Shown here: positions 5,068 to 13,161 of the stretch, piece by piece | Numbering within the stretch: the first letter of the stretch is position 1 | How the letters are laid out: each line of letters starts with the position of its first letter | Source: an uncultured Chloroflexus sp. | GTDB taxonomy: Bacteria > Chloroflexota > Chloroflexia > Chloroflexales > Chloroflexaceae | Assembly (NCBI RefSeq): GCF_937129525.1 | Contig: NZ_CAKZNK010000029.1 | Span: 1-38,095 of the forward strand | Direction: 5' to 3' | DNA length: 38,095 bases | The notes under the pieces: model-generated | Told to the model about the DNA's origin: nothing | The model's database searches: none | What the model saw: only the letters and a program-made list of their open reading frames with translations | Program-made: the position numbers and the translations under genes

Positions 5068-5096
5068 TTGACAGTCTTTTTCATCTCAGCTATACT
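5068..5096 (+). promoter_or_regulatory. Near-consensus sigma-70 promoter of the BMP importer operon
   Basis: TTGACA at 5068-5073 and TATACT at 5091-5096 are separated by 17 bases, the best promoter match in the window. The predicted transcript start is near 5103-5104, which puts a leader of about 175 nt before the first gene. An 8-bp inverted repeat, CAGTGGCG at 5054-5061 and CGCCACTG at 5097-5104, flanks the promoter symmetrically and could bind a dimeric regulator. Confidence 0.8.
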
Positions 5097-5102
5097 CGCC
5101 AC

Positions 5103-5229
5103 TGCAATCGGGCGCTCCGCGATAGCGTCCTGAACAGCGATGAGGCTGGCAGGGAGCCTTCCCCGTCTGAAGGCGAATCTGCGCGAAACTGTCTCGGCGC
5201 AGCGATGATTTCGGTCATCGATTGCGCCG
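5103..5229 (+). promoter_or_regulatory. Structured 5' leader with competing helices: candidate riboswitch or attenuator
   Basis: Two exclusive folds can be read directly. Fold A: the first transcribed bases GCAATCG (5104-5110) pair with CGATTGC (5219-5225) as a closing helix. Inside it lie a CTGCGC/GCGCAG helix (5179-5184 with 5197-5202) and either AGGCT/AGCCT (5143-5147 with 5155-5159) or CCTTC/GAAGG (5157-5161 with 5169-5173). Fold B: CGGCGCA (5195-5201) pairs with TGCGCCG (5223-5229), stacked on CGATGA/TCATCG (5203-5208 with 5215-5220). This long stable hairpin is followed by TTTCGTTGTT and resembles an intrinsic terminator. Fold B destroys both the closing helix and the CTGCGC helix. A 22-codon upstream frame (ATG 5140, stop 5206) with no clear ribosome site gives an alternative leader-peptide model. 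I did not recognise a known riboswitch consensus. Confidence 0.55.
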
Positions 5230-5278
5230 TTTCGTTGTTAGGGTACAGTCTTTGCAGATGCTGACAAGGAGTCGACCG

Positions 5279-6508
5279 ATGAGAGTCCGTTTTGTCCGCT
5301 GGCCATTGCTGTTCATCACGCTGCTCAGTCTGGTGTTAACGGCATGTGGCTCGCAACCGGCTGCCGCGCCGACTGCTGCGCCAACCACCGCGCCGGCTGA
5401 GTCGACCGAAGAGTTTACCTTCGGGATGGTGCTGGTTGGTCCTATCAACGATGGCGGCTGGAACCAGGCCCACTACGAGGCCGCTCAGTACGTGGTGGAA
5501 AAGGTGCCCGGAGTGAAGTTCATCTACATCGACAAGGTGAATCCGGCTGACCGGCCCAATGTCAAGGTCGAACAGGCAATTGAAGAGCTGATCGGCCAGG
5601 GCGCCCGGCTTATCATCACCAATTCGGCTGAGTTTGCCGATGGCACTAATATTGCCGCTGCCGCTCACCCCGATGTCTATTTCATTCACGCTTCCGGCGA
5701 TAAAGTGCTGACCGGTGAAGCGCCGCCGAATGTGCGCAATTTAATGGGTCGGATGGAGTACGGCAAGATGATCGCCGGTTGCGCCGCAGCCTTAACTACT
5801 GAGAATGGCAAGCTGGCCTATCTCGGCCCCCTGATCGATCCCGAAACGCGCCGGCTGGTCAACTCTACCTATCTCGGCGCTCGCTATTGCTGGGAGAATT
5901 ATCGCGGTCGCTCCGCCGATGAACTGGCGTTCAAGGTGACCTGGATCGGATTCTGGTTCAATATTCCTGGCGTAACGCTCGATCCGACTAAAGTCGCCAA
6001 CGACTTTATCAATGAAGGCTACGATGTCATTCTCTCCGGCATTGATACCACTGAAGGTATTGTCGAGGCGAATAAGGCCACGCAGGCCGGCAAGCGCGTC
6101 TTCGCCGTGCCATACGATTTCAAGGGCGCTTGCGCGCAAGGTGAAGCGGTGTGTCTGGGTGTCCCCTATTTCAACTGGGGGCCTGACTATAAGCGACTGG
6201 TTGAGCTGGCGCGCTCAGGCCAGTGGGAGCCGGCATGGGAGTGGACGGGGCCGAATTGGAGCAATATCAATGACCCTGACACCAGCATGATCGGTTTTGT
6301 GAAGGGGCCGGCGCTGAGCGCCGAGAATGCGGCTAAGCTTGATGAGTTTATCGCCAAACTGGCCGACGGTAGTCTGAACCTTTTCACCGGTCCGCTCTAC
6401 TATCAAGATGGCAGTGTCTTCGTGCCGGAAGGTCAGGTAGCCGACGATAAGACGATCTGGTATACTCAGCAGTTGCTGGCCGGCATCGAAGGTCAGAGCG
6501 CGCCGTAA
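5279..6508 (+). CDS. BMP-family substrate-binding lipoprotein of an ABC importer
   Basis: This is the extracytoplasmic receptor of the importer encoded downstream. The ATG at 5279 is chosen because AAGGAG lies at 5266-5271 and a lipoprotein signal follows at once: hydrophobic 8-20, lipobox LTAC with Cys23. A longer reading from TTG 5222 would bury the signal. After an Ala/Thr/Pro linker (24-43) the 409-residue protein shows the basic-membrane-protein (PF02608-type) start FGMVLVGPINDGGWNQAHYE (48-67). The family includes nucleoside receptors (PnrA, BmpD, Med) and some riboflavin receptors, so substrate cannot be fixed from sequence; a nucleoside or purine is the default guess. The gene is preceded by a strong promoter and structured leader and followed by a terminator. 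That terminator would let the receptor be made in excess over the membrane parts. Confidence 0.92.
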   Translation: MRVRFVRWPLLFITLLSLVLTACGSQPAAAPTAAPTTAPAESTEEFTFGMVLVGPINDGGWNQAHYEAAQYVVEKVPGVKFIYIDKVNPADRPNVKVEQAIEELIGQGARLIITNSAEFADGTNIAAAAHPDVYFIHASGDKVLTGEAPPNVRNLMGRMEYGKMIAGCAAALTTENGKLAYLGPLIDPETRRLVNSTYLGARYCWENYRGRSADELAFKVTWIGFWFNIPGVTLDPTKVANDFINEGYDVILSGIDTTEGIVEANKATQAGKRVFAVPYDFKGACAQGEAVCLGVPYFNWGPDYKRLVELARSGQWEPAWEWTGPNWSNINDPDTSMIGFVKGPALSAENAAKLDEFIAKLADGSLNLFTGPLYYQDGSVFVPEGQVADDKTIWYTQQLLAGIEGQSAP

Positions 6509-6566: not shown

Positions 6567-8066
6567 ATGCACATCGCGGTTGAACACCTGACCAAACGGT
6601 TCGGCGCAGTATGCGCCAATGACCGCCTGACCATTTCGTTTGCCGCCGGCCAGATTCACGGCGTGCTGGGGGAAAATGGCGCCGGCAAGAGCACGCTCAT
6701 GAAGCTGTTGGCCGGTTATCTACAGCCCGATGAGGGTCGCATCCTGTTTGACCATGCTCCGCGTCGCTTAAGCGGGCCGGGCGATGCGCTGGCAGTTGGC
6801 GTGGGTATGGTGCATCAGGAACCGCTCGACATTCCGGCGTTTACCGCGCTTGAGAATCTGCTCTGCGCCGCGCCGCCAGGGGTTTTTCGTTCGCGTCGCG
6901 CCGCTCAAACGGCCTTGCAAGAACTGGCTGAACGGCTGGGTTTCCCTGTCGATCCGGCGGCCCGCCTCGATCAGTTGACGGTTGGTCAGCGACAGCAGAT
7001 CGAGATTATGCGCCTGTTGTTGTGCGGCGCTCGCGTGTTGATCCTTGATGAACCAACTACCGGCATTACCGCCGCTCAGGCCCGGTCACTCTTCACCGCG
7101 CTGCGCCAGATTGCTGCCGAGGGGCGAACTGTTTTGTTTGTGTCACACAAGCTGGAAGAGGTGGCCGAGTTGTGTCACACGGTAACAGTGTTGCGCAATG
7201 GGCAGGTCGTTCCTCCCGGTCAGTTGCCTATGCCACAGCCGCAGGAGTATCTGCTGTCGCTCATGTTTGGCGAAGCCGGCGCTGAGCCGCCGATCTACCG
7301 TCCGTTGCCGTTAATTGATGCCCCGCCGGTATGGGAATTGCATCGCGTGACCGCGCGGAGCGGCACGCTCCAACTGGTCGATCTCAACCATCGCTTCGCC
7401 GCCGGACGCATCATCGGCCTGGCTGGCCTTGACGGCAGCGGTCAACAGGTCTTGTTGCGTTTGCTTGCCGGTCAGCTTGCGCCCGATCGCGGGCGGGTGC
7501 TGGTGAACGGTCGCGATCTGACCGGCGCAGGCCCAATCGCATTTCGCCAGGCCGGGATCGAATATCTCCCCGCTGACCGCTTGCGCGATGGCATGATCGG
7601 CGCTCTGTCGCTGACCGATCACTTTGCGCTGTTGCAGGGTAGAGGGGCGCTGGTTGATCGCCGCGCAGCCGAGGAAGCTGCGCGTCAGGCCATTGCTGAG
7701 TATCAGATTAAAGCTACTCCGATCACCCCCATCGCCGCCCTATCGGGAGGCAATCAGCAACGGGCAATGCTGGCGCTGGTGCCGCCCGATGCGCGCGGTA
7801 TTCTGGCCGAACAGCCAACCCGCGGCCTCGACGTAGCTTCGGCCCGCGCCATCTGGGGACGGTTGCAGGCGCGCCGTGATGCCGGCTGTTGCGTCATCTT
7901 CGCTTCGCCCGATCTCGACGAGATTATGGAATATAGCGACGAGGTGATTGTCTGTTTTGCTGGCCGTATCGGACCGCCGATCCCGCGCGCGTTGCTGTCA
8001 TCGGCCAGATTGGCCGAATTGATCGGCGGAGTAGGTTTTGATGCTTTGGTTGAGGCAGTTGCCTGA
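6567..8066 (+). CDS. ABC importer ATPase with two nucleotide-binding domains (BMP/nucleoside type)
   Basis: This 499-residue protein powers the importer from the cytosolic face. The first domain is complete: Walker A GENGAGKS (35-42, Lys41), Q-loop MVHQEP (81-86), signature LTVGQ (137-141), Walker B VLILDEP (157-163) and switch His at SHK (193-195). The second domain is degenerate at its P-loop, GLDGSGQQ (287-294), with Gln in place of Lys. It keeps a good signature, LSGGNQQR (392-399), and EQPTRGLD (415-422). A weakened second P-loop is common in this double-domain family, so it is not evidence of decay. No Shine-Dalgarno is obvious because the ATG follows the terminator T-run closely. The stop lies 13 bases before the start of the next gene. 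Confidence 0.93.
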   Translation: MHIAVEHLTKRFGAVCANDRLTISFAAGQIHGVLGENGAGKSTLMKLLAGYLQPDEGRILFDHAPRRLSGPGDALAVGVGMVHQEPLDIPAFTALENLLCAAPPGVFRSRRAAQTALQELAERLGFPVDPAARLDQLTVGQRQQIEIMRLLLCGARVLILDEPTTGITAAQARSLFTALRQIAAEGRTVLFVSHKLEEVAELCHTVTVLRNGQVVPPGQLPMPQPQEYLLSLMFGEAGAEPPIYRPLPLIDAPPVWELHRVTARSGTLQLVDLNHRFAAGRIIGLAGLDGSGQQVLLRLLAGQLAPDRGRVLVNGRDLTGAGPIAFRQAGIEYLPADRLRDGMIGALSLTDHFALLQGRGALVDRRAAEEAARQAIAEYQIKATPITPIAALSGGNQQRAMLALVPPDARGILAEQPTRGLDVASARAIWGRLQARRDAGCCVIFASPDLDEIMEYSDEVIVCFAGRIGPPIPRALLSSARLAELIGGVGFDALVEAVA

Positions 8067-8079
8067 CAGGTATACTCGC

Positions 8080-9099
8080 ATGCGCCTGGATCGTTTAAAA
8101 CCTCTGGCCAGCCTGACGCGACCGCTCCTGGCGCTGCTGGCCGCCTTTGTGCTTACGACTATCGCCCTGTTGAGTAGCGGCGTGGCGCCGCTCGAAGCGT
8201 ATCGCCTGATCCTGTTTGGCGCCTTCAGCACGCCAGTGCGCTTGAGCGATATGATCATGCTCGCTGCGCCGTTACTGCTCTGTTCCGTTGGCCTCAGCAT
8301 CACCTTTGCTGGCGGTCTCTACAATCTCGGCGTCGAGGGTCAGATGATCGCCGGCGCTATCGCAGCGATGGTTCCGCTGCGCCTGTGGCCAGACTGGCCG
8401 CCGCTGTTGCTCTGGTTGCTGGCCGGACTCAGTGGCGCGGCAGGTGGCGCGCTATGGGCATTGCTGATCGGTGGCTTGCGCCGCTACGCCGGCGTCAGTG
8501 AAATCTTTGCCGGCCTCGGCATGAATTTTCTCGCCAGCGGATTGGCCCTCTACCTCGTGCTCGGCCCCTGGCGGCGACAAACCTCGGCGTCACTCTCAGG
8601 CACCGATCTACTACCGCGCGAACTCTGGCTTCCCACCGTTGACCGGTTGCGCCTGGCGCCGGCAGCGCCGGTGATCGCTCTGATTGCGCTGGTAATCGTC
8701 TGGTGGGCGCTCACCAAAACGCGCTGGGGGTTGGAAGTGCGGGCTGTTGGCCTCAACCCGGCAGCCGCCGCAAGGCTGGGTATTGTCACCGCTCGCCGCA
8801 TGGCCGAGACGCTGGCCGCCTGTGGCGCGCTGGCCGGTACTGCCGGAATGTTGCAGGTAGTTGCGGTGCATCATGCTCTCATTCCCAACATCTCGAGCGG
8901 GATCGGGCTGTTGGGATTGCTGGTTGCGCTGCTGGCGCGGGCCGATCCACGCTGGCTGTTGCCAATCGCGGTTGCCTTTGCCGCTTTCACCGTGGGCAGC
9001 ATTCAATTGCCGCTCACGCTCGGCATCGATAGCGCGATTGCCGGCGTCTTGCAGGGCGCTCTAGTGCTCTTCGCTCTGGCGACCCGCGCTCGACGCTGA
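8080..9099 (+). CDS. ABC importer permease 1 (BPD_transp_2 family)
   Basis: This is one of two inner-membrane channel subunits of the BMP-type importer. The 339-residue protein is hydrophobic throughout, with about eight to ten membrane segments. It carries the family signature ITFAGGLYNLGVEGQMIAGA near residues 76-95, followed by a Gly/Ala-rich region. Start: the frame is open from TTG 8038 and ATG 8041 inside the ATPase gene. The ATG at 8080 gives a normal N-terminus (MRLDRLKPLASL) and follows GACAGG at 8065-8070, so I prefer it. It would pair with the product of the next gene as a heterodimer, as in nucleoside importers such as NupOPQ/BmpDEFG-type systems. Confidence 0.9.
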   Translation: MRLDRLKPLASLTRPLLALLAAFVLTTIALLSSGVAPLEAYRLILFGAFSTPVRLSDMIMLAAPLLLCSVGLSITFAGGLYNLGVEGQMIAGAIAAMVPLRLWPDWPPLLLWLLAGLSGAAGGALWALLIGGLRRYAGVSEIFAGLGMNFLASGLALYLVLGPWRRQTSASLSGTDLLPRELWLPTVDRLRLAPAAPVIALIALVIVWWALTKTRWGLEVRAVGLNPAAAARLGIVTARRMAETLAACGALAGTAGMLQVVAVHHALIPNISSGIGLLGLLVALLARADPRWLLPIAVAFAAFTVGSIQLPLTLGIDSAIAGVLQGALVLFALATRARR

Positions 9100-9145
9100 T
9101 CGGCGGTCAGTTTCCTCCATAACCACGACGAAATGGTGTGACGGT

Positions 9146-10132
9146 ATGGAACAACTCTTGATCGATCTGGCGGCAGTATTGGCTGCTGCGTCGCCACTAG
9201 TCATTGCGGCGATGGGCGAAACGCTCAGCGAGCGGGCTGGCGTCATCAATCTCTCGCTTGACGGCACGATGCTCTTATCTGCAATGACCGGCTTTGCCGT
9301 TGCGCTTATCACCGGTAATCTCATCCTCGGCTTCATCGCCGCAGCCCTGGTTGGCGCACTCGTCGCAGCCGTGCTCGGACTGTTCAGTCTAACCCTCGGC
9401 CAGTCACAAACGGCGGTTGGGTTTGTGCTGGCCCTGCTCTGCACCGATCTCTCATCATTTCTCGGCGCTCCTTTCGCTCGCGTACCTGGCCCGTCAGTTC
9501 CCTTCACCCCGATTCCCGTCCTGTCCGATCTCCCCGTCTTCGGCCCGCTCTTCTTCCGCCACGATCCGGTCATCTACGCCAGCTTGCTCATCGTGCCCTT
9601 CACCGCTTTCCTGCTCTACGGCACGCGGCTGGGTCTCATCGTGCGCGCGCTCGGTGAACGACCGGCGGCGGTCTATGCGCGGGGTGTAGACGTGACCCGT
9701 TGGCGATATGCCATGCTGATCGCCGGCGGCGCGCTGGTCGGCATTGCCGGCGCCGCATTCTCGCTCGATCTCAAGCAAGGCTGGAGCTACCGCCACACCT
9801 TCGGTTCAGGCTGGATCGTCCTGGCCATCGTGATCTTCGGCGGCTGGCGACCGTGGCGAGTCGCATTGGGATGCTACCTCTTCGCGGCGCTCGAGCTGGT
9901 CGCCACCCGATCGCAGAGTGCCTTGCCAGACATTCCCACCCAAATCGTTCAGGTAGCGCCCTTCGTGCTCATGATCCTGGTGCTGGCCCTGGTTAACCTT
10001 GCCGCATCGCCGGCAGCAGCGCGCCAGGTCATGCGCCTGCCCGCATTCTGGCAACGCCCTCTGCTGGCTGCCATCAACCGCCTGCGCGCTACCGCTCCTG
10101 CGGCGCTCGGTCAACCATTCGAGCGACCGTGA
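9146..10132 (+). CDS. ABC importer permease 2 (BPD_transp_2 family)
   Basis: This is the second channel subunit. The 328-residue protein has the typical opening MGETLSERAGVINLSLDG (residues 23-40), then repeated hydrophobic segments and a cytoplasmic loop with TRWRYAML near 187-194. It lies 46 bases after permease 1 in the same direction and is the last gene of the importer operon. The Shine-Dalgarno is weak (GTGTGACGGT just upstream). The C-terminus is charged and extends past the last helix (from about residue 288). With the receptor, ATPase and permease 1 this makes a complete importer of the purine nucleoside/BMP class. Which nucleoside or related compound it carries is unknown. Confidence 0.9.
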   Translation: MEQLLIDLAAVLAAASPLVIAAMGETLSERAGVINLSLDGTMLLSAMTGFAVALITGNLILGFIAAALVGALVAAVLGLFSLTLGQSQTAVGFVLALLCTDLSSFLGAPFARVPGPSVPFTPIPVLSDLPVFGPLFFRHDPVIYASLLIVPFTAFLLYGTRLGLIVRALGERPAAVYARGVDVTRWRYAMLIAGGALVGIAGAAFSLDLKQGWSYRHTFGSGWIVLAIVIFGGWRPWRVALGCYLFAALELVATRSQSALPDIPTQIVQVAPFVLMILVLALVNLAASPAAARQVMRLPAFWQRPLLAAINRLRATAPAALGQPFERP

Positions 10133-11853: not shown

Positions 11854-12465
11854 ATGATCGATCTTTTCATTCGCGGGATGTTGTTTGGGCTGGCTATCGC
11901 AGCGCCGGTTGGTCCAATCGGTCTGCTCTGCATCAAACGTACAATCATCGATGGTCGTATCGCCGGATTCGTCAGCGGGTTGGGCGCGGCTACTGCCGAT
12001 GCAATCTATGGCTCGATTGCCGCGCTGGGCTTGCAGGCGATCAGTAACCTGATCCTCAGCTTCAGTCCGTTTCTCCGCATCGTCGGCGGCCTGACCCTGC
12101 TCTGGATCGGCGTAACAACCATCTATGCCGCCCCGCAGACTATCGACATCGCGCCAGCGGTCTCGCGCCGTGGCCTGCTCGCCGCTTACCTTTCGACTCT
12201 GTTCCTCACGTTGACTAATCCGGCGACCATCCTGATCTTCACAGTCATCTTTGCCGGTCTTGGCCTTAGCGCCGGCATGGATAGTCTGGCCGGTATAACT
12301 CTGGTGGCCGGCGTTGCCGGTGGTTCTGCCTTGTGGTGGACGATCTTGAGCGGTGGGGTAAGCTTCGCGCGCGGGCGCGTAACCCCACTGGTGTTGCGCG
12401 TGATCAACCTGATCTCAGGCGTGATCATTAGCGGTTTTGGTGTGGCGGCATTCGTCGCGTTGTAG
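11854..12465 (+). CDS. LysE/RhtB-family exporter
   Basis: This is an inner-membrane efflux protein of the LysE superfamily, which exports amino acids or similar small solutes. The 203-residue protein has about six membrane segments and the family N-terminus, GMLFGLAIAAPVGPIGLLC (8-26), containing the conserved APVGP. A Gly/Ala-rich second helix (VSGLGAATADAIYG, about 40-53) and an LTNPATILIF segment (near 116-125) are also typical. Length is normal. An AAAGGA-like site lies about ten bases upstream of the ATG. The thiamine pyrophosphokinase gene begins 48 bases after its stop on the same strand, so the two may be cotranscribed. Substrate is unknown. Confidence 0.87.
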   Translation: MIDLFIRGMLFGLAIAAPVGPIGLLCIKRTIIDGRIAGFVSGLGAATADAIYGSIAALGLQAISNLILSFSPFLRIVGGLTLLWIGVTTIYAAPQTIDIAPAVSRRGLLAAYLSTLFLTLTNPATILIFTVIFAGLGLSAGMDSLAGITLVAGVAGGSALWWTILSGGVSFARGRVTPLVLRVINLISGVIISGFGVAAFVAL

Positions 12466-12513
12466 CCAGCCGGCGCCGGGATAGTGGAGCGCTGGATCAG
12501 GAGGGCAGAAACA

Positions 12514-13161
12514 ATGTATGTCGTGATTGTAGCCAATGCGCCAGACCTTGATCTGACACCCTACCATCATCTGCTTACTGCCGCCGAGCGCCTGATCGCC
12601 GCCGACGGAGGCGGCACAAGCCTGTTTGCCCACGGCTATACACCACACCTGCTGATCGGCGACCTTGATTCGATTACCTCTGAGGCGTTAGCCGCCTATG
12701 AGGCGCAAGGCGTGACGATCGAACGGCATCGTCCCGATAAAGACGAAACCGATCTGGAACTGGCGCTGCTGGCAGCCGTGAACATGGGAGCCGACCAGAT
12801 CGATGTGATTGGCGCGTTGGGAGGCCGTTGGGATCAGTCATTGGCCAACGTTGCGCTGTTGGGCATGGCTGAACTGCGCGGTCGTCGCGCGCGGTTAATC
12901 GATCATCCGCAACAGATCTGGCTGGTGCGTGACGAGAGCGTGATTCCTGGCGAAGCTGGCGATACCGTTTCACTGCTCCCCTTTGGCGGCGATGCGAGCG
13001 GCATCAACACCGCAGGATTAGCATACCCGTTGGTCAACGGCACTTTGCGCGCTGACCGGGCGCGCGGTGTCAGCAATGTCATCGTCAACCCTCCGGCGCG
13101 CGTTCAGGTGCGCGATGGCGCTCTGCTGGTTGTCTGGACAACCCGTTCCGGGTCGGTCTGA
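12514..13161 (+). CDS. thiN: Thiamine pyrophosphokinase
   Basis: This enzyme transfers pyrophosphate from ATP to thiamine, making the cofactor thiamine diphosphate in one step. The ATG at 12514 is chosen over GTG 12484 because AGGAGGG lies at 12499-12505, eight bases upstream, and conserved sequence begins at once. The 215-residue protein shows AADGGG (29-34), GDLDS (49-53), KDETDLELAL (76-85) and GALGGRWDQSLAN (100-112), the catalytic-domain motifs. The C-terminal half (about 125-212) is beta-rich, as in the thiamine-binding domain. Length is normal. No TPP riboswitch or thiamine importer is visible nearby. The upstream partner is a LysE-type exporter. Confidence 0.94.
   Translation: MYVVIVANAPDLDLTPYHHLLTAAERLIAADGGGTSLFAHGYTPHLLIGDLDSITSEALAAYEAQGVTIERHRPDKDETDLELALLAAVNMGADQIDVIGALGGRWDQSLANVALLGMAELRGRRARLIDHPQQIWLVRDESVIPGEAGDTVSLLPFGGDASGINTAGLAYPLVNGTLRADRARGVSNVIVNPPARVQVRDGALLVVWTTRSGSV

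Follow-up and report, generated by a model that had tools for sequence, protein, structure and literature searches.

Attenuation is frequent in ABC-transporter operons, and sensing systems have been switched between attenuators that occupy syntenic positions (Naville and Gautheret 2010, PMC2965389). The unclassified "ABC-leaders" described in that paper, whose main text does not mention Chloroflexus, closely resemble the element reported here. Both are conserved, structured, and lineage-restricted leaders that carry a terminator-like hairpin and precede an ABC transporter operon. They differ in that the Chloroflexus leader is predicted also to mask the Shine–Dalgarno (SD) sequence, through a pairing that we call helix 1, and in that its antiterminator is only a possible one. 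A second point of comparison is provided by translational riboswitches that sequester the SD. Like these, the Chloroflexus leader is predicted to have two folds that exclude each other, with the ribosome-binding site (RBS) paired in one of them. Unlike these, it has neither a known aptamer nor an Rfam match, and the predicted masking strand lies at the extreme 5′ terminus of the transcript. To our knowledge, the regulatory RNAs of Chloroflexota have been little studied.

The window analyzed here is a 38,095-nt stretch of contig 29 from a Chloroflexus genome (G000). Its leader, which is shared with relatives including C. islandicus, heads the operon of an importer with a BMP-type binding protein (Table 1). 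We classify it as a new orphan cis-regulatory leader; very probably it serves as an on/off control built into the mRNA, and it matches no described RNA family.

Table 1. Features of the leader and its operon, in window coordinates
Feature	Position	Strand	Remarks
Sigma-70 type promoter TTGACA-17-TATACT	5068–5096	+	Matches the consensus at 11 of 12 positions; highest-scoring site in the region
Conserved structured 5′ leader RNA, ∼178 nt	5103–5278	+	Single copy per genome, 8 of 8 Chloroflexus
Helix 1, 5′ strand, AUCGG-CGCUCC	5107–5118	+	Pairs with 5268–5280
Alternative 5′ hairpin GGGCGCU/AGCGYCC (5110–5116/5124–5130)	5110–5130	+	Its formation would release 5107–5118 from helix 1
Hairpin 5128–5138/5145–5154	5128–5154	+	Two independent compensatory changes (G000, G006)
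Hairpin 5156–5161/5169–5174	5156–5174	+	Compensatory changes at two pairs
Candidate helix bracketing the terminator-like hairpin, 5′ strand, AUCUGCG	5177–5183	+	With UGCAGAU, 5253–5259; invariant in 8 of 8
Terminator-like hairpin (5195–5229) and U-rich tail (5230–5239)	5195–5239	+	C-G outer pair, one bulge; tail TTTCGTTGTT
Shine–Dalgarno AAGGAG	5266–5271	+	7 nt upstream of the ATG at 5279; invariant in 8 species
Helix 1, 3′ strand	5268–5280	+	GGAG of the SD, CG, and CCGAU including the AU of the start codon
BMP/PnrA-like substrate-binding lipoprotein, gene 1 of the regulated operon	5279–6508	+	Pfam PF02608, 1.1e-14
Remaining operon	6567–10132	+	ATPase 6567–8066; permeases 8038–9099 and 9146–10132

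Results

Judged by sequence comparison, the leader is real and is under strong purifying selection at the RNA level. Across eight Chloroflexus genomes its mean pairwise identity is 87%, compared with 83% for the BMP coding sequence and 49% both for the fourfold sites of that gene and for the 200 nt upstream of the leader. Substitution at neutral sites has thus been heavy, and almost the whole leader is constrained as an RNA. One might still suppose that the leader is a plain untranslated region, kept alike by chance or by recent common descent and devoid of any regulatory role, given that there are just eight related genomes and that most pairs are invariant. However, recent ancestry cannot explain the identity of the leader when fourfold sites in the same comparisons have diverged so far, and we strongly disfavor this reading as highly improbable.

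The leader is also narrowly distributed. R1, our covariance model of it, hits each Chloroflexus genome exactly once, in every case ahead of the BMP gene, and has no convincing match elsewhere among the 158 class-level and 400 phylum-level genomes searched. The best match outside the genus, in G180, was rejected because it falls in coding sequence, and the remaining outside matches are marginal. An exact-pattern scan of GTDB contigs returned four Chloroflexus records and one from Elusimicrobia; the latter was discarded, its flanks being unlike the leader and its R1 score only at chance level. A sequence-only reading of this DNA had been unable to fit the leader by eye to the purine, TPP, FMN, cobalamin, SAM, glycine, or THF consensus patterns. 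The Rfam release 15 covariance scan agrees, with no match at the gathering score in the leader and chance-level matches only; Rfam scans of the window and of the orthologous leaders likewise returned nothing relevant. By eye, a short CCUGAUC...AGGGA in orthologous leaders recalls the P4/P5 side of the TPP riboswitch (RF00059). We rejected that family: it has no match in the leader even at a threshold of E 10, nor in five other Chloroflexus genomes, whose leaders were scanned at E 2, and the CUGAGA pyrimidine-sensing part of the TPP riboswitch is missing.

The solved structures closest to the BMP protein are 3s99, a Brucella-type basic membrane lipoprotein, and 6pi5, an atrazine periplasmic binding protein. 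By analogy with these, a nucleobase-like substrate is likely for the importer, and the transporter family makes a purine-type nucleobase or nucleoside a natural guess for the signal that the leader would sense. The gene neighborhoods of the BMP loci that we looked at held no informative neighbors as to substrate. Genes for a LysE-type exporter and a thiamin pyrophosphokinase lie on the same strand of the window (11854–13161), ∼2 kb downstream of the operon. They show no sign of membership in the regulated operon, and a glycosyltransferase gene on the minus strand intervenes.

The promoter proposed in the sequence-only reading holds up well. It is recognizable with an identical 17-nt spacer in all eight Chloroflexus genomes and, at the same spacing, in most orthologous operons from other genera of the family; its position places the transcription start near 5103. 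Between this promoter and gene 1, as transcription-attenuating riboswitches require, sits a putative intrinsic terminator. This hairpin, which had also been proposed earlier, outscores 200 shuffles together with its U tail in G000 and in seven of the eight Chloroflexus leaders; in the eighth, from G003, the stem is longer and interrupted, and the scorer missed it. It covaries, with one compensatory pair within the genus. Its U tail is weak (7 U in 10). Comparably short and interrupted U tracts characterize the intrinsic terminators found where C. aurantiacus genes end, and terminator-type matches in that species occur in 14 of 171 gene-end windows as against 17 of 594 mid-gene windows.

Other pairings suggested from the window sequence fared less well. 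The proposed closing helix, GCAATCG (5104–5110) with CGATTGC (5219–5225), is indeed complementary but is not a conserved P1, since it is broken in two of the eight leaders and otherwise shows wobble changes only. Similarly, CTGCGC (5179–5184) can pair with GCGCAG (5197–5202) and is invariant in all eight, but the strength of its possible pairing as an antiterminator does not rise above shuffles. More generally, pairing between the upstream region and the 5′ arm of the hairpin gave p values of 0.19–0.65 against each leader's own shuffles in four Chloroflexus leaders, and antiterminator pairing exceeded chance in only one of 24 leaders. A lack of covariation in these three helices had been named as grounds for abandoning the riboswitch or attenuator interpretation; it largely applies to the closing helix and to CTGCGC/GCGCAG, whereas the terminator-like hairpin does covary. 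The alternative of a ribosome-mediated attenuator with a leader peptide was rejected: the 22-codon frame at 5140–5208 is present here, but its ATG or frame is missing or broken in other species. What survives of the original interpretation is a structured, conserved, Rfam-negative BMP-operon leader with a terminator-like hairpin; its closing helix and leader peptide do not, and its antiterminator is supported no better than chance pairing.

Comparison of the eight species supports an overall fold in which 97.3% of cells are paired. Pairs changed on both sides number 5, compared with 1.1 in shuffles and 0–1 in slid controls, and these compensatory changes are located in the two local hairpins (Table 1), neither of which the sequence-only reading had named, and in the terminator-like hairpin. 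Folding z-scores range from −3.2 to −3.8 for the full leader in all eight genomes, but only from −1.0 to −2.1 for the 5′ domain alone. Much of the folding signal therefore comes from pairing over long range to the 3′ end. The helix bracketing the terminator-like hairpin has a 5′ strand that overlaps the possible antiterminator; being invariant, and hence without covariation, it is a candidate.

The strongest feature, which was absent from the sequence-only reading, is helix 1. In our predictions this is the best-supported fold, and it is seen in all eight species. Its 11 pairs are formed in 98.9% of cells, and the duplex is stronger than shuffles (p about 0.004–0.04). The GGAG of the SD is predicted to pair with a probability of at least 0.97 in all eight leaders, and the AU of the start codon with at least 0.92 in seven of them and 0.12 in G002. 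Certainty about helix 1 is limited because it does not covary and rests on invariance and thermodynamics; part of it, being SD and start codon, is constrained in any case. The competing 5′ hairpin keeps its seven pairs in all eight genomes, with one position U or C opposite G, and is predicted to be the earliest hairpin in growing transcripts. Forcing this alternative fold costs ∼3–8 kcal/mol at 55 °C and releases the SD only partly. In five leaders folded at 55 °C the SD is still predicted to be paired, and an RNA thermometer is unlikely because this pairing persists at 55–65 °C.

Orthologous operons tell a story of turnover. A hairpin with a U-rich tail recurs in the same place, with different arm sequences, across most of the family's other genera and part of a second family. 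In the family it typically lies 87–102 nt from the transcription start and ∼40 nt before the ATG. The orthologous hairpins were selected as hairpins, and their perfect pairing arises partly by construction; the fair test is therefore the comparison with shuffles, which most of them beat, while L039, L044, L052, L054, L067, and G003 do not under that scorer. Because the hairpin and U tail recur at the same place with different sequences, premature termination in BMP leaders is plausible. The distance from promoter to hairpin is nearly constant across the family, which would also suit a separate small RNA of ∼135 nt delimited by these two elements, with the importer expressed by read-through. 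We regard this as improbable: conservation extends beyond the hairpin to include the SD and start codon, the global fold depends on that stretch, and the leader always adjoins the BMP gene.

The segment upstream of the hairpin differs between lineages. Outside Chloroflexus, the conserved 5′ segment often has TTAAC-N5-CTTAAT (or a close variant) near the transcription start, followed by AGC-RRCGYN-GCU and a GGG...CCC hairpin. With R2, our model of this segment, 19 genomes of the family each give a single hit, located at the BMP operon; Chloroflexus gives none. Since the R1 and R2 segments differ, the same operon is served by unrelated upstream elements. Sequestration of the SD by the 5′ end did not emerge as a general property of other genera, and long-range pairing there between the 5′ region and the sequence after the terminator is not above chance.

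Several further observations concern these orthologous leaders. The TTAAC-N5-CTTAAT box forms direct repeats with an 11-base period near the transcription start in L039–L058 (for example G013:C146:38855–38870, minus strand). It resembles a PhoB/OmpR-type regulator site, and it also precedes genes for a response regulator (L150), a CYTH-domain protein (L144), and an ABC ATPase (L145). A CAGAT located 10–15 nt before the SD is conserved in most genera (L039–L060) and in Chloroflexus (5255–5259), despite the differing leader around it. The leader of L059 (G020:C54) has two successive terminator-like hairpins, GCGTTCCC/GGGAACG with a T-rich run and then GACACGGATG/CATCCGTGTT. In the second family (L068–L073), the leader is short, with 44–53 nt to the terminator-like hairpin; it has a GATGCA/TGCATC hairpin, and CCCAG/CTGGG or CCCC/GGGG brackets the terminator. 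The operon thus has yet another distinct type of leader.

Discussion

Our favored explanation, to which we give somewhat better than even credence, is that a genus-specific cis-acting control RNA of ∼178 nt heads the BMP importer mRNA and acts by attenuation together with RBS masking. The layout that best fits the leader is RBS sequestration, with the terminator-like hairpin embedded in it. As the RNA is being transcribed, its 5′ end would first fold on itself through the alternative 5′ hairpin. At the terminator-like hairpin, RNA polymerase would then either stop or read on. In the full-length transcript, the 5′ strand of helix 1 would pair with the SD and start codon and thereby block translation. 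A signal, which may be a metabolite, a protein, or an ion, would switch the importer on by keeping the 5′ hairpin in place or by otherwise opening helix 1. Conservation of the leader, the compensatory changes that support its local hairpins, and the terminator-like hairpin are present in the sequences themselves; we infer the switching, and both termination and translational masking in the cell, from them.

In another reading the leader is a new riboswitch class, the 5′ domain of which would directly bind a small ligand, probably the compound that is imported or a product of it, and switch the terminator, the SD helix, or both. The long and nearly invariant leader, in which even the loops are conserved, is consistent with such an arrangement ahead of an importer operon, as are the covarying local hairpins and the lack of an Rfam match. 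ABC-transporter operons, moreover, frequently host unclassified attenuators (PMC2965389). Against this, the leader occurs in a single genus, before a single operon. Riboswitch aptamers are as a rule shared between genera, whereas no aptamer conserved across lineages emerged here: R1 has no convincing match outside Chloroflexus, and the orthologous operons of sister genera have a different 5′ segment. We consider a new class of this kind a tentative reading, and direct ligand sensing by the leader possible, with about a quarter of our credence. A bolder version, in which a riboswitch class confined to Chloroflexus exerts two-level control (termination, plus RBS masking by the first bases of the transcript) and replaced the leader of the sister genera, seems to us doubtful.

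Alternatively, the leader may be a protein-responsive leader or attenuator, whose fold would be dictated by an RNA-binding protein or by the ribosome, with a terminator as the effector. Here the sensor parts would have turned over between lineages while the terminator stayed. Across most of the family the terminator-like hairpin keeps a similar distance from the start while its sequence varies and the segments upstream of it are lineage-specific. This argues for such a mechanism, and syntenic attenuators with different sensing systems provide a precedent (PMC2965389). On the other hand, there is no conserved leader peptide, the short frame being absent in other species, and no candidate protein was identified. 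This reading we hold to be rather unlikely.

With RBS masking and attenuation combined, as we favor, the Chloroflexus leader is a compact and testable candidate for control of an importer. Finding its signal would help to find the substrate of the importer, and vice versa. More broadly, the same operon keeps a terminator-like hairpin while the element upstream of it changes between genera, which makes the BMP importer operon a case for studies of RNA sensor replacement.
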